A stretch of 64,000 bases of DNA from assembly GCA_003554105.1 (NCBI GenBank), contig PWFQ01000060.1, positions 62,001-126,000 of the forward strand, in the 5' to 3' direction. Position 1 is the stretch's first letter; each line of letters opens with the position of its first letter. This DNA is from Clostridiaceae bacterium (GTDB taxonomy: Bacteria; Bacillota; Clostridia; Peptostreptococcales; T1SED10-28). Positions 3,041 through 41,212 of this stretch are shown in pieces. Below the pieces are notes generated by a model. It worked only from the letters and a program-made list of their open reading frames with translations, had not been told where the DNA came from and did no database searches. The translations under genes and the position numbers were made by a program.

Positions 3041-3627
3041 TGGAGATTAATCCTTTTACCATTCTGATCGCTTCAATTTTCACGAATAATATGATTTTAG
3101 CTAATTTCTTGGGTATGTGTTCATTTATTGCTGTTTCAAAAGAAATCAAAACCTCCCTTGGACTTGGACAGGCAGTGACATTTGTACTTACAGGTACCTC
3201 TGTAATTAATTATCTTGTTTATACTTACATTCTAGAGCCTTATGGTCTGGAGTATCTACGATTCATTGTATTTATTATCACGATAGCCACTTTTGTTCAA
3301 CTGGTTGAAATGATTATTGAGCGATACGTACCGACATTATATTATTCCTTGGGAATCTTCCTTCCCCTGATCACGGTAAATTGTGCAATTTTGGGTGTGT
3401 CTTTATTTATGGTAATTCGAGAGTACACTCTTTTACAGTCTCTTGCCTTCGGAATCGGATCAGGTCTAGGCTGGACACTAGCAATTGTTGCACTGGCAGC
3501 AATCAGACAGAAAATTAAAAACGCACCGATTCCCAAAGGTCTTCAAGGTGCAGGTGTCACATTAATCATTACGGGGTTAATGGCATTGGCTTTTATTGGT
3601 TTGTCCGGTGTAGTAACCATTCAATAA
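3040..3627 (+). CDS. nqrE: NqrE/RnfA-family membrane subunit
   Basis: Multi-TM, LGIFLPLITVNCAILGVSLF motif typical of NqrE/RnfA. Confidence 0.85.
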   Translation: MEINPFTILIASIFTNNMILANFLGMCSFIAVSKEIKTSLGLGQAVTFVLTGTSVINYLVYTYILEPYGLEYLRFIVFIITIATFVQLVEMIIERYVPTLYYSLGIFLPLITVNCAILGVSLFMVIREYTLLQSLAFGIGSGLGWTLAIVALAAIRQKIKNAPIPKGLQGAGVTLIITGLMALAFIGLSGVVTIQ

Positions 3628-3640
3628 CGGAGGTGATTCG

Positions 3641-4747
3641 ATGACAACCATTCTATCAACAGTTTTTATCATAACCGGAATTACAACGGGGTTAGCAATC
3701 GTAATTACCTTTGCCAACGCCTTTATAGCAGATTATGGTGAGAAAAAGATGATCATTAATAATGATAAGGAATATATTGTTGAGGGTGGAAAAAGTATTT
3801 TATCTGCTCTTGTGGACCAGAAGATTTTTATTCCTTCAGCCTGCGGCGGTAAAGGCAGCTGCGGGTATTGCAAATGCAAAGTTAATGAAGGCGGTGGCCC
3901 TGTTCTTGCAACAGAAATGTCCTATCTCACTGAAGAAGATGTGGAAAATGATATACGATTATCCTGCCAGGTGAAAATCAAAGAAGACGTGAAAATCGAA
4001 ATTCCTGAAGAGCTCTTTAACGTAAAGCAGTTTGAAGGAAAAGTTGTTTTTTCTAAGGATCTTACCCCTAAAATCAAACATCTCCGTATTGACATTACTG
4101 ATGGACAGGAAATTGAATTTAAGGCAGGTCAATACGTTCAGTTATTAGCTCCTCCCTATCCAGGGAATGCTGAGGAGGTTTTCAGGGCTTATTCCATTGC
4201 TTCTTCTCCTTCCGAGACAAAAAGTATTGATTTAATCATCGGTTACGTGGAGGAAGGCATTGTCACAACTTATGTTCATGAACATCTTTCTGAGGGCGAT
4301 GAAGTGCTTTTCAATGGGCCTTTTGGTGATTTTTATCTTAATGAAGAAACTGGATGCGACATTTACATGGTGGCTGTAGGAACAGGTATAGCTCCTATAC
4401 GCAGTATTTTACACTATATGAATGAAAAAAAGATAGAAAGAAAAGCCCGGTTTTTCTTTGGTGCCAGAACTCAGGATGACCTTTTTATGGTCGAAGAAAT
4501 GAAACGGTTGGAAGAAGAAATGTATGACTTTGAATACATCCCTGTCCTCTCCCGTGCCGATGACGATTGGGAGGGTGAGCGTGGAAGAGTAACGGATCTT
4601 GTTGATAAGCTAATGGAAAAAAGCGACAGTGGAGAAGGGCGCGAAGCATATCTCTGTGGTGGAGCTCCGATGATTGATTCTACTGAAAAGGCCTTGCTTG
4701 GAAAAGGTCTCCCCGAGGAAAAGATCCTCTATGATAAATTTGATTAA
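3641..4747 (+). CDS. nqrF: NqrF-like NADH-oxidising subunit (TM + 2Fe-2S ferredoxin + FAD/NAD domains)
   Basis: CGGKGSCGYCKCKV...LSCQV 2Fe-2S motif; RAYSIASSP FAD motif; GTGIAPIRSI NAD motif; YLCGGAPMI. Confidence 0.87.
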   Translation: MTTILSTVFIITGITTGLAIVITFANAFIADYGEKKMIINNDKEYIVEGGKSILSALVDQKIFIPSACGGKGSCGYCKCKVNEGGGPVLATEMSYLTEEDVENDIRLSCQVKIKEDVKIEIPEELFNVKQFEGKVVFSKDLTPKIKHLRIDITDGQEIEFKAGQYVQLLAPPYPGNAEEVFRAYSIASSPSETKSIDLIIGYVEEGIVTTYVHEHLSEGDEVLFNGPFGDFYLNEETGCDIYMVAVGTGIAPIRSILHYMNEKKIERKARFFFGARTQDDLFMVEEMKRLEEEMYDFEYIPVLSRADDDWEGERGRVTDLVDKLMEKSDSGEGREAYLCGGAPMIDSTEKALLGKGLPEEKILYDKFD

Positions 4748-4792
4748 GAGCTTCCTTAGTATTTTATCATGTATATTTGGCTAGGTACTAGC

Positions 4793-4838
4793 AAAAATAA
4801 AACAAGGATTCCCTTGAGGATATCCTTGTTTTATTTTT
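4793..4838. terminator. Bidirectional rho-independent terminator between nqrF and aminotransferase
   Basis: aaaataaaacaaggat...atccttgttttattttt inverted repeat between convergent genes. Confidence 0.8.
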
Positions 4839-4841
4839 ATG

Positions 4842-6059
4842 TTATGAAGCCGAGTAATCTGCTAACAATTCTCCAAAAGTTTTCACAAACTCCTGAATCT
4901 CTTTCATTTCAATAATTAGGGGAGGCAGTAATCGAAGAATGTTCCCTTGTGTGAAATTCACAAGAATCCCTTTTTCAATAAAATTATACTGGATTTTTTG
5001 TATATAATTCATTCCATCATAATCCTTCTTAGAACCTATGAGCATTTCAACACCAATCATCATTCCAAGGCCTCTTATTTCACCGATCTGCTCCGGGAAT
5101 TTTTCTTTAAGTAATTGAAGCTCTTTTATCAGTTTTTGGGATTTTGATTTCACATCACACAAAAATTCATCATTGATTACTTCCAAGGTCTCCAAACCCA
5201 TAGCAGTGCTGAGGGGGTTTGGTCCAAAAGTGGTTCCATGATCTCCCGGAGAAAAATATCCGTCAAATTGATCTCTTACTATGATCCCCCCTAATGGATT
5301 ACCTCCACCGATACCTTTTGCAAAGATAAGAATGTCCGGATCAATCGGAAAATTTTGATATGCAAAGAACTTTCCGGTTCTTCCAATACCGGTTTGAATT
5401 TCATCAACGACCATTATCACATCATATTTTTTGCATAATCTTTGAATCTGCAGCAACTCTTCCTCTGGAAAAACTTGAATCCCCCCGCTTCCGCTGATGA
5501 TCTCAAAGAGGATCCCTAAAGGTTGTTTCTCAATAAAAAGGTCCTCTATTTCGTCAATTTGCCTTCGGGAGATTTCATAAAAAGGATATTCAATAGAAGG
5601 AAAATCCTGTGAAACTCCATTCATTTTCGTTGCACTCAAAGCGCCTAGAGTTCTTCCGTGGAAGCTGTTTTTAATAACCACAATTCCCCTTCGCCCTTCC
5701 TTTACTCCAATCTTAAACAGATATTTTATTGCTGCTTCAGTTGCCTCAGCTCCTGAGTTGCAAAAGAATACTTTTCCCGGAAAACTTCGATCAATGAGTT
5801 TTTCCCCTAATTCAATTGCATTTTTACAATAGTAGAAGTTTGATATATGAAGATATTTATCCAACTGCCTCTTTCCTCGATTAATTAATCGGGGATGACA
5901 GTGACCCAACACATTCACTGCTAAGCCGGAGAATAGATCCAGGTATTCCTTTCCTTTATCATCATAGAGCTTTGTCCCTCTCCCTTTTTCTATAACAACA
6001 GGATACCTGCTATATGTAGGCAGAAGGACGTTTTTCTCACGTTCAAGCCATTCACTCAT
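4842..6059 (-). CDS. Class III pyridoxal-phosphate aminotransferase (acetylornithine/N-acetyl-diaminopimelate aminotransferase-like)
   Basis: NSGAEATEAAIK, VVDEIQTGIGRTGKFFA, FAKGIGGGNPLG motifs; start at MSEWLER preceded by ggagggg; last gene of lysine operon. Confidence 0.85.
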   Translation of the reverse strand: MSEWLEREKNVLLPTYSRYPVVIEKGRGTKLYDDKGKEYLDLFSGLAVNVLGHCHPRLINRGKRQLDKYLHISNFYYCKNAIELGEKLIDRSFPGKVFFCNSGAEATEAAIKYLFKIGVKEGRRGIVVIKNSFHGRTLGALSATKMNGVSQDFPSIEYPFYEISRRQIDEIEDLFIEKQPLGILFEIISGSGGIQVFPEEELLQIQRLCKKYDVIMVVDEIQTGIGRTGKFFAYQNFPIDPDILIFAKGIGGGNPLGGIIVRDQFDGYFSPGDHGTTFGPNPLSTAMGLETLEVINDEFLCDVKSKSQKLIKELQLLKEKFPEQIGEIRGLGMMIGVEMLIGSKKDYDGMNYIQKIQYNFIEKGILVNFTQGNILRLLPPLIIEMKEIQEFVKTFGELLADYSAS

Positions 6060-38825: not shown

Positions 38826-38886
38826 CAATAAGAAAAACCCTCTTGCAATGATTTACTGAAAACCATTGTAAAAGGGTTTTATTTTT
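38826..38886. terminator. Bidirectional terminator (convergent genes)
   Basis: aaaaaccctcttgcaatg...cattgtaaaagggtttta inverted repeat. Confidence 0.75.
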
Positions 38887-40549
38887 ATTCTTCTGGTAAA
38901 AGGAGTTCCTCACCGATATAAATCGGTTCATCCTCCCCTTTTTCATTGTATTCCCGAATTTTTTCAACCATGGAGGAATCATTGTAATAACGCATTGCAA
39001 TTGCGTACAACGTATCACCTTCCACAACAACATGCACTTGTTCAGAATCAGCAGAAGGTTCTTCGGACGTCTCTTCCTCTTCAGGATCTTCGTCAGTAAT
39101 AGCTTCAGTATCCTCCTCTGTATCTTCCTGATCTTGTTCTTCATCATCGGACTCAATTTCATCGTTTTCTTCATCGATTATTCTTTCTTCATCTTGCCCA
39201 TTGTCATCAATAACAGAACCATTTATTGCCGTTTCCTGCTCCCGGCCTGTCAGGCGCTCTCTCAAACCTCGAAAAGTTGTCATAGCAGCAATAATCAGAA
39301 TCAAAGAGAGGAAAAGTATGGCAACTGCAATCAATTTGTTTCTGTTCATTTGCGCTATTCCTGTTTTCTTAAAGAATTTACCCTTTTTTTTGACCGGGGC
39401 TGAAGCTTTTGCAGTATGCTCTTTTCTATTGCTTTCCTGGAACTTGGAAAACAGCGCTTGACTTTCATTAAACCGTTCCTCCAAAATTTTCTCCCGTTCC
39501 AGCTCTTCTTCCGTTCTCTCTATTTCTTCCTCATCGGACAATAGATCATTTAAGTCTGCCGCGGTTTTCTCATGTCCGTTTCTCAGAGGACTTGGGACAA
39601 TCGGATCATCCTGAAAAACCTTTGCTTCCGATCTGCGCTCTTTTTGTAAAAAATCCTCTTTTTCCAGATGATCAATTTCACCATTCTCAGAGTTTTGATT
39701 CGAATCAATTTCTTCATCAATTTCTTCATCATTTTCTTTAGCAGGATAAGCGGCAATCTGCTTATCGCTTATAACATCCTTTGCTGCATTGACAATTTCC
39801 ACCACTTTAACCCCAAGCAGGGTTAAATTATCATGACCCTCATAGAGTAGCGCTTCCCTCAATCCTTCCTTTACCGCATCCTTTAAAGGATATTCTTTGA
39901 AGATTGATTTGAAGATCTCCTCCTGGGTTGGTTGATATACCTGATCCGTTGATAGGAAATACAGGTCGTTCTCTTTTAACTGAAAGGCTTCAGAAAAGCT
40001 CAAAACCTCTTTTACAGGGTACTCTCTACAGTAGAATCCTTTTGAATCCCGGAAGGATACTTCATGAATTTCGTCGTTTCTTTGAATAAAAAGCCCCCTG
40101 TAACCAAGTGAGAAGCCAATGAGGATGTCACGATCAATGATGATCCCGATCATTTTTGCACCTAAAGGAACTTCCTCATTTCCCTCCGGTGTGATGAAAT
40201 CCGCATCCATCTTATTGAATTTTTCCAGACCTTTTTCAAGGTGTTTTTCCAGAAGCTTCATTTTCTCATCCAATGAAAGTTCGGGATTTTCCTCAATATC
40301 CAAGTGATAACGACTAAGAGCATCGATTGCATAAAAAGCGGCTTTTTCACCAAGCTCTCCTTCTATGCTTCCCCGTGCAATTGCATAAACACTTTGCTGA
40401 AAACTGTGCCTGGTGAACTTCACTGTCGAATCCTTTTTTTGGTGCAAGTCCATGTACTGCCCGTTCAGGTAGAACTTGTCTCGATTTCCTTGGAGTACAT
40501 TGCCCTTATGACTTGCTACCGAGGCTTCAATTTTTGCAAATTCATCCAT
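38885..40549 (-). CDS. PP2C-phosphatase-like domain / TM / acidic linker / LysM protein
   Basis: N-terminal PP2C-like fold pattern ending GHDNLTLLGVKV; TM KLIAVAILFLSLILIIAAM; Asp/Glu-rich linker; C-terminal LysM VVVEGDTLYAIAMRYYNDSSMVEKIREYN...IGEELLLP. Confidence 0.75.
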   Translation of the reverse strand: MDEFAKIEASVASHKGNVLQGNRDKFYLNGQYMDLHQKKDSTVKFTRHSFQQSVYAIARGSIEGELGEKAAFYAIDALSRYHLDIEENPELSLDEKMKLLEKHLEKGLEKFNKMDADFITPEGNEEVPLGAKMIGIIIDRDILIGFSLGYRGLFIQRNDEIHEVSFRDSKGFYCREYPVKEVLSFSEAFQLKENDLYFLSTDQVYQPTQEEIFKSIFKEYPLKDAVKEGLREALLYEGHDNLTLLGVKVVEIVNAAKDVISDKQIAAYPAKENDEEIDEEIDSNQNSENGEIDHLEKEDFLQKERRSEAKVFQDDPIVPSPLRNGHEKTAADLNDLLSDEEEIERTEEELEREKILEERFNESQALFSKFQESNRKEHTAKASAPVKKKGKFFKKTGIAQMNRNKLIAVAILFLSLILIIAAMTTFRGLRERLTGREQETAINGSVIDDNGQDEERIIDEENDEIESDDEEQDQEDTEEDTEAITDEDPEEEETSEEPSADSEQVHVVVEGDTLYAIAMRYYNDSSMVEKIREYNEKGEDEPIYIGEELLLPEE

Positions 40550-40567: not shown

Positions 40568-41212
40568 TTATTCTAGAGCTTTCTTGGCAAGCTGATCTGC
40601 CAGCTCATTATATTCATCGCCTGAATGGGCTCGAACTTTAATAAATTTGACAGGAAAGCGGTCAGCAATCTTCTCAAGATAGTATTTCCTGTAATTCATC
40701 GTCCCCTCTTGTTTTGCTTTCCATTCTCCGGTGCACCATTTGGCAATACCTTCATAGTCATGATAGATCCAAAGCTCTTTGAACTTCCCTTCATTTTTCA
40801 GGGCAAAGGCCATAGCGTATTGTGCGCCGAGAAGCTCTCCTGCAACGTTTCGCATATGTGCCAAATCCTCACGGTCTCCTTTTTTTGAAAAGTGAAGCTC
40901 TTTACCGTTTATGATTAGAACAACACCACAACTATACTCCATTTTCTCCTTATTGAAACTGCCATCAACGTAGGCTTTAAGAATATTTCTCTCTCTATTA
41001 GTATGTTTCGACATAGTCGGAGTTTTTTCCTTTTTCATCGCTGATTTTTTCTCGGAATTATTGGAAAAATATGCTTTTGCTTCCTCAAGTGTTACAAACC
41101 CTTTATATTCTGCATTAGGGAATCTTTTTATTTGTTCTTCACATTCCTTCCAAGTGGTATAAATTCCCGGAACCATTCCAACTTTTACAGCATAATAGTT
41201 TTTCTTTGCCAT
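40568..41212 (-). CDS. Ribonuclease H family protein with N-terminal viroplasmin-like domain
   Basis: YYAVKVGMVPGIYTTWKECEEQIKRFPNAEYKGF domain then AYVDGSFNKE...KVRAHSGDEYNELADQLAKKAL. Confidence 0.92.
   Translation of the reverse strand: MAKKNYYAVKVGMVPGIYTTWKECEEQIKRFPNAEYKGFVTLEEAKAYFSNNSEKKSAMKKEKTPTMSKHTNRERNILKAYVDGSFNKEKMEYSCGVVLIINGKELHFSKKGDREDLAHMRNVAGELLGAQYAMAFALKNEGKFKELWIYHDYEGIAKWCTGEWKAKQEGTMNYRKYYLEKIADRFPVKFIKVRAHSGDEYNELADQLAKKALE

Follow-up and report, generated by a model that had tools for sequence, protein, structure and literature searches.

The window (the whole 64,000-nucleotide stretch of DNA analysed here) encodes a 554-aa protein on its minus strand (38885–40549) in which a PP2C-like pseudophosphatase domain, a transmembrane (TM) helix, an acidic ectodomain and a LysM domain follow one another. 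Related proteins across Clostridia form a conserved family of predicted dead phosphatases joined to LysM under strong selection, pointing to a role as an adaptor or sensor linked to the wall and not as an enzyme. We give about half of our confidence to the reading that the window protein is a LysM-anchored, non-catalytic PP2C adaptor or sensor that ties contact with the wall to the binding of proteins in the cytosol. It plausibly acts in PrkC/Stp1 signalling, although both the partner and the pathway are guesses.

The gene runs from an ATG at 40549, preceded by the Shine-Dalgarno-like GAGGGTGA, to a stop codon ending at 38885. It starts 18 bases past an RNase H gene (40568–41212, minus strand) that lies immediately upstream, outside the system, and is probably co-transcribed with it. 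The PP2C-like domain (aa 1–252; 39794–40549, minus strand, as are all features below) is supported by the Stp1 HMM, hhalign, a motif table and the fold of an ortholog. A charged cytosolic linker of about 150 aa (aa 253–404; 39338–39793) leads to a TM helix (aa ~405–424; 39278–39337; Kyte-Doolittle peak 2.95), whose K/R-rich N-side flank predicts an N-in/C-out topology under the positive-inside rule. Beyond it lie an acidic low-complexity ectodomain (aa 425–501; 39047–39277), with 34 D/E and 2 K/R among 68 residues counted between TM and LysM, and a LysM domain (aa 506–552; 38894–39034; Pfam PF01476, E 4.4e-7) that passes the gathering score (30.2 bits vs 20.9). LysM domains bind peptidoglycan or chitin glycan, and from this family knowledge the window LysM presumably does the same. 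The earlier note had correctly read one TM, an acidic stretch and a LysM, in the right order; it overlooked the cytosolic linker. Within this otherwise fast-evolving linker, a 20-aa helical motif seen by eye (aa 352–371, REKILEERFNESQALFSKFQ; 39437–39496) has been conserved in both the window protein and the sister genus, where by-eye comparison reads it as ERxRIFEQRYAESxxLFNKK; it is a possible docking site.

When about 390 genomes of the class were searched with profiles and proteins, the order PP2C-like, TM, low-complexity, LysM appeared in eight family-level groups (f1, f17, f26, f36, f50, f72, f86 and f92), across which the active sites are variously eroded. Each of five same-family genomes has a single ortholog (34–43% identity), and the gene is present in 28 of 32 genomes of f17 (23 of the 24 good-quality ones), in all 11 of f36 and in all six of f1. 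A relative in f23 ends with its contig before any LysM position. The degenerate LysM members outside f1 form one clade (97/97), and a single clade that takes in f1 as well is neither supported nor rejected (AU p 0.29). Four named database matches are from metagenome-assembled Clostridiales or Clostridiaceae. Beyond the class, a phylum-wide search with one member returned little other than Stp1-like proteins; one protein found there (L143) is a TM-bearing PP2C whose catalytic motifs are intact and whose covered sequence contains no LysM. The earlier note did not recognise the architecture as standard and suggested looking for its conservation in Clostridia. That conservation extends to eight family codes, and neither Pfam and NCBIfam nor a search of openly accessible papers yielded a description of a PP2C–TM–LysM family; with at least eight family-level groups, the combination is not rare. 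The modules and the PP2C pseudoenzyme trick are known, whereas this widely conserved, receptor-like combination is undescribed in these sources.

Both the PP2C-like domain and the LysM are under purifying selection. Within the sister genus, pairwise dN/dS is 0.07–0.08 for the PP2C-like domain, which is therefore not decaying, and 0.2–0.6 for the two linkers; most LysM comparisons give 0.03–0.06, and one gives 0.12. Three residues of the PP2C-like domain (D40, E77 and E232, window numbering) are conserved across the degenerate lineages and variable in catalytic relatives, a pattern to be expected if a function other than catalysis is retained. These data weigh against a rather doubtful alternative, a passive wall tether or structural protein in which the LysM and acidic ectodomain would provide spacing, wall charge or localisation, with the cytosolic fold serving only as an anchor. 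Such a role would suit the recurrence of acidic or low-complexity plus LysM modules with different cytosolic domains, for example in f5, but would not predict a PP2C-like domain nearly as constrained as the LysM, far more so than the linkers, and with conserved positions of its own across lineages.

The f5 family belongs to the same taxonomic order as the window, and its proteins (L007, L009–L012, L127–L133) have an N-terminal domain that resembles a kinase N-lobe, followed by a TM, an acidic/Pro linker and a LysM; the gene adjoins a transketolase gene. Their N-terminal domain reaches only 22% against PrkC in hhalign and has no kinase match in Pfam or NCBIfam scans, and it is possible, though suggestive only, that f5, which lacks the PP2C form, carries a pseudokinase as its counterpart. 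In f2, two proteins (L134, L136) have a related N-terminal domain and a TM with a different, PKD/jelly-roll-like ectodomain.

The description of the window protein as a mirror of PASTA-kinase signalling, offered in the earlier note, is a hypothesis. PASTA kinases (PrkC/PknB) likewise join a cytosolic signalling domain through one TM to a wall-binding ectodomain, but they have a kinase and PASTA repeats in place of the PP2C-like and LysM domains. Pfam, NCBIfam and hhalign found neither kinase domain nor PASTA repeats in the window protein, and its cytosolic domain has no homology to that of PASTA kinases (hhalign 0.2%). In its own genome, a canonical Stp1 gene lies adjacent to that of the PASTA kinase PrkC, and this co-occurrence is the sole PrkC link found for the window protein. 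Direct regulation of PrkC, as a TAB1-like co-activator or as an Stp1 decoy at the septum, would fit this adjacent pair and the precedent of TAB1, itself a pseudophosphatase of the PP2C type that binds a kinase (PMC12002173). We nevertheless consider it unlikely, given that the protein has no PrkC-specific operon or co-distribution link and that many genomes have PrkC/Stp1 without a PP2C-like–TM–LysM protein, among them those of f5, where PrkC and Stp1 are both present.

Gene neighbourhoods likewise single out no signalling partner. The order FAD protein, RNase H, PP2C-like–TM–LysM gene is kept in f1 genomes; in other families the neighbours vary and are housekeeping genes, which we take to be polA/coaE and ffh in f50 and dnaJ/clpB-like genes in f72 and f92, and the neighbourhood comparison yielded no partner gene fixed across families. 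One candidate pseudokinase partner conserved in f1, G000:C5, had a weak kinase match and was rejected because its sequence is of the UbiB/ABC1 type, an assignment we make from family knowledge.

Loss of catalysis in the window protein is very probable from its motifs. In an alignment of 68 domains, catalytic motifs are near-invariant across 18 Stp1 sequences and 14 further catalytic PP2Cs, and active-site motif residues are altered in every LysM-linked sequence save L049. The motif readings in the earlier note (YAIARGSIEGE, NRDKFYLNG and GHDNLTLLGVKV) all agree with the translation: in the window protein Arg replaces the DGMGG Asp and Tyr the GDSR Asp, NED reads NRD and SDG reads TDQ, and the DN Asp is kept. 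Alongside these degraded motifs, the flap segment (HPxRNxLTxxLG) is deleted, as in all f1 orthologs, and the clade-typical FYxNG hairpin is retained. The claim of catalytic death made in that note therefore gains support from motif loss but needs qualifying, for Asps survive at three catalytic positions of the window protein (NED D24, SDG D202 and DN D240), so that the call draws on the whole pattern together with the orthologs. In all five sister-genus orthologs A/S stands in place of the DGMGG Asp, K/R in place of that of SDG and K/E in place of that of DN, and every metal-site Asp is lost. With three Asps kept in the window protein, and those of DGMGG and SDG in the f17, f36 and f26 lineages, the domain could possibly still bind metal. 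Different lineages have lost different active-site residues; erosion therefore continued after the architecture was set, or occurred repeatedly.

One member, in f31 (L049/L099), has a complete active site, a TM and two LysMs, and matches Stp1 with E 1e-55; as L099 (G250, 3269–4873) it keeps all catalytic residues and is a predicted wall-binding active phosphatase. A PP2C–TM–LysM protein that is predicted to be active therefore exists, and this intact-site relative allows a direct comparison with the pseudophosphatase members. Together with the DGMGG, SDG and DN Asps retained in some lineages, it is what speaks for a cryptic or atypical phosphatase, whose rearranged metal centre would still hydrolyse phospho-Ser/Thr under the control of LysM contact with the wall. 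For the window protein this is quite improbable, given the Arg and Tyr substitutions, the TDQ motif, the absent flap and the replacement of the DGMGG, SDG and DN Asps in all five sister-genus orthologs.

The PP2C ancestry of the N-terminal domain, proposed in the earlier note, is secure. Of the domain searches that the note had suggested, Pfam returned the LysM above its cut-off and no PP2C match on the window protein; the NCBIfam Stp1 model (NF033484) matched the window protein weakly (E 9e-4, 18.8 bits vs a cut-off of 230), orthologs in all five same-family genomes with E 4e-8 to 1.5e-4, and most N-terminal domains of the wider family with E 1e-3 to 4e-21. Profile–profile comparison with hhalign gave a probability of 99.8% for catalytic clostridial PP2Cs and of 98.9% for Stp1 (kinase control, 0.2%). 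Structure prediction, also suggested there, agreed: for an ortholog, AF2 gave a model (pLDDT 65, pTM 0.70) whose 50 best Foldseek matches in the PDB were all PP2C-fold chains (E from 5e-11, prob 1.00), among them S. agalactiae Stp1, PstP, tPphA, SpoIIE, RssB and TAB1, with matches to 2pk0, 2cm1 and 2j82. The opposite view, that the domain is no PP2C and resembles one by chance, could point to the missing Pfam match and to the low pLDDT (41) of the model that AF2 built for the window domain from five sequences, unusable for fold matching; these HMM, hhalign and Foldseek results effectively refute it. The most degenerate group is f50, tied to PP2C by profile comparison alone (97.6%). In its members L110 and L111 only the NFYINGK hairpin is strongly kept, and in two genomes the gene has coaE on one side and ylxM/ffh on the other.

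Within the PP2C/PPM fold superfamily, the window domain shares fold and ancestry with Stp1/PrpC/PstP (NF033484), but its family forms a separate clade in the tree (support 100), is membrane-bound and fused to LysM, and has lost the active site. Its closest relatives by HMM and tree are clostridial NEDNFYxNG PP2Cs (L044–L059, L106, L107), which have the FYxNG hairpin in common with it and differ in having intact motifs and in being free-standing or carrying other ectodomains, as in PP2C–TM–BIG2 proteins. Descent from an active clostridial PP2C of this NEDNFYxNG clade is the best explanation for the PP2C-like domain. Some of these PP2Cs adjoin Ser/Thr kinase, FHA-like or WXG100-type genes, and the catalytic same-clade relatives L107, L106 and L142 have Ser/Thr kinase and FHA-like genes as neighbours, a hint that their common ancestor with the window domain had a role in kinase signalling. 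L106 and L107 combine intact PP2C motifs with a TM and a BIG2-like ectodomain, adjoining FHA-like and Ser/Thr kinase genes, and the L106 locus additionally has WXG100-like and FtsK-size genes.

Non-catalytic PP2C folds have precedents. In gammaproteobacterial RssB, the effector domain adopts the PP2C fold, is devoid of the active-site residues and serves as an adaptor (PMC7226468; PMC5468089), which makes it a bacterial likeness to the window domain; RssB differs in being soluble, with a receiver domain and neither TM nor LysM, and Pfam and NCBIfam scans found no N-terminal receiver domain in the window protein. Among eukaryotes, the PP2C 'chassis' has repeatedly lost activity, in PHLPP and Cyr1, and TAB1 is another pseudophosphatase; TAB1, PHLPP1/2 and Cyr1 resemble the window protein in having lost metal ligands while retaining the fold, serve as adaptors or scaffolds, and differ in their partner domains (PMC12002173).

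On the adaptor or sensor reading, the window protein would be a single-pass membrane pseudoenzyme whose PP2C-fold domain, having lost catalysis, sits in the cytosol, and whose flexible linker, one TM and long, mostly acidic spacer would carry the LysM into the cell wall. There the LysM may engage GlcNAc-containing peptidoglycan glycan, and this engagement would place or gate the cytosolic PP2C fold, working as a protein-binding adaptor. The adaptor might hold phosphoproteins or PrkC/Stp1-network partners near the wall or, alternatively, act as a decoy for Stp1.

A bolder extension of this reading, which we hold to be less likely than not, is a class-wide receptor family of Clostridia in which a retired PP2C fold, driven by the binding of peptidoglycan to the extracellular LysM, would relay wall status to cytosolic phospho-signalling, with the kinase-like–TM–LysM version replacing it in f5. 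Reporting of wall state to the cytosol in Gram-positive bacteria is known mainly through PASTA kinases. A conserved family that has a pseudophosphatase inside and a LysM outside would add a second link from wall to cytosol in Clostridia, one as yet without a name, and strong selection would here maintain a retired PP2C fold, of which bacteria offer few examples.
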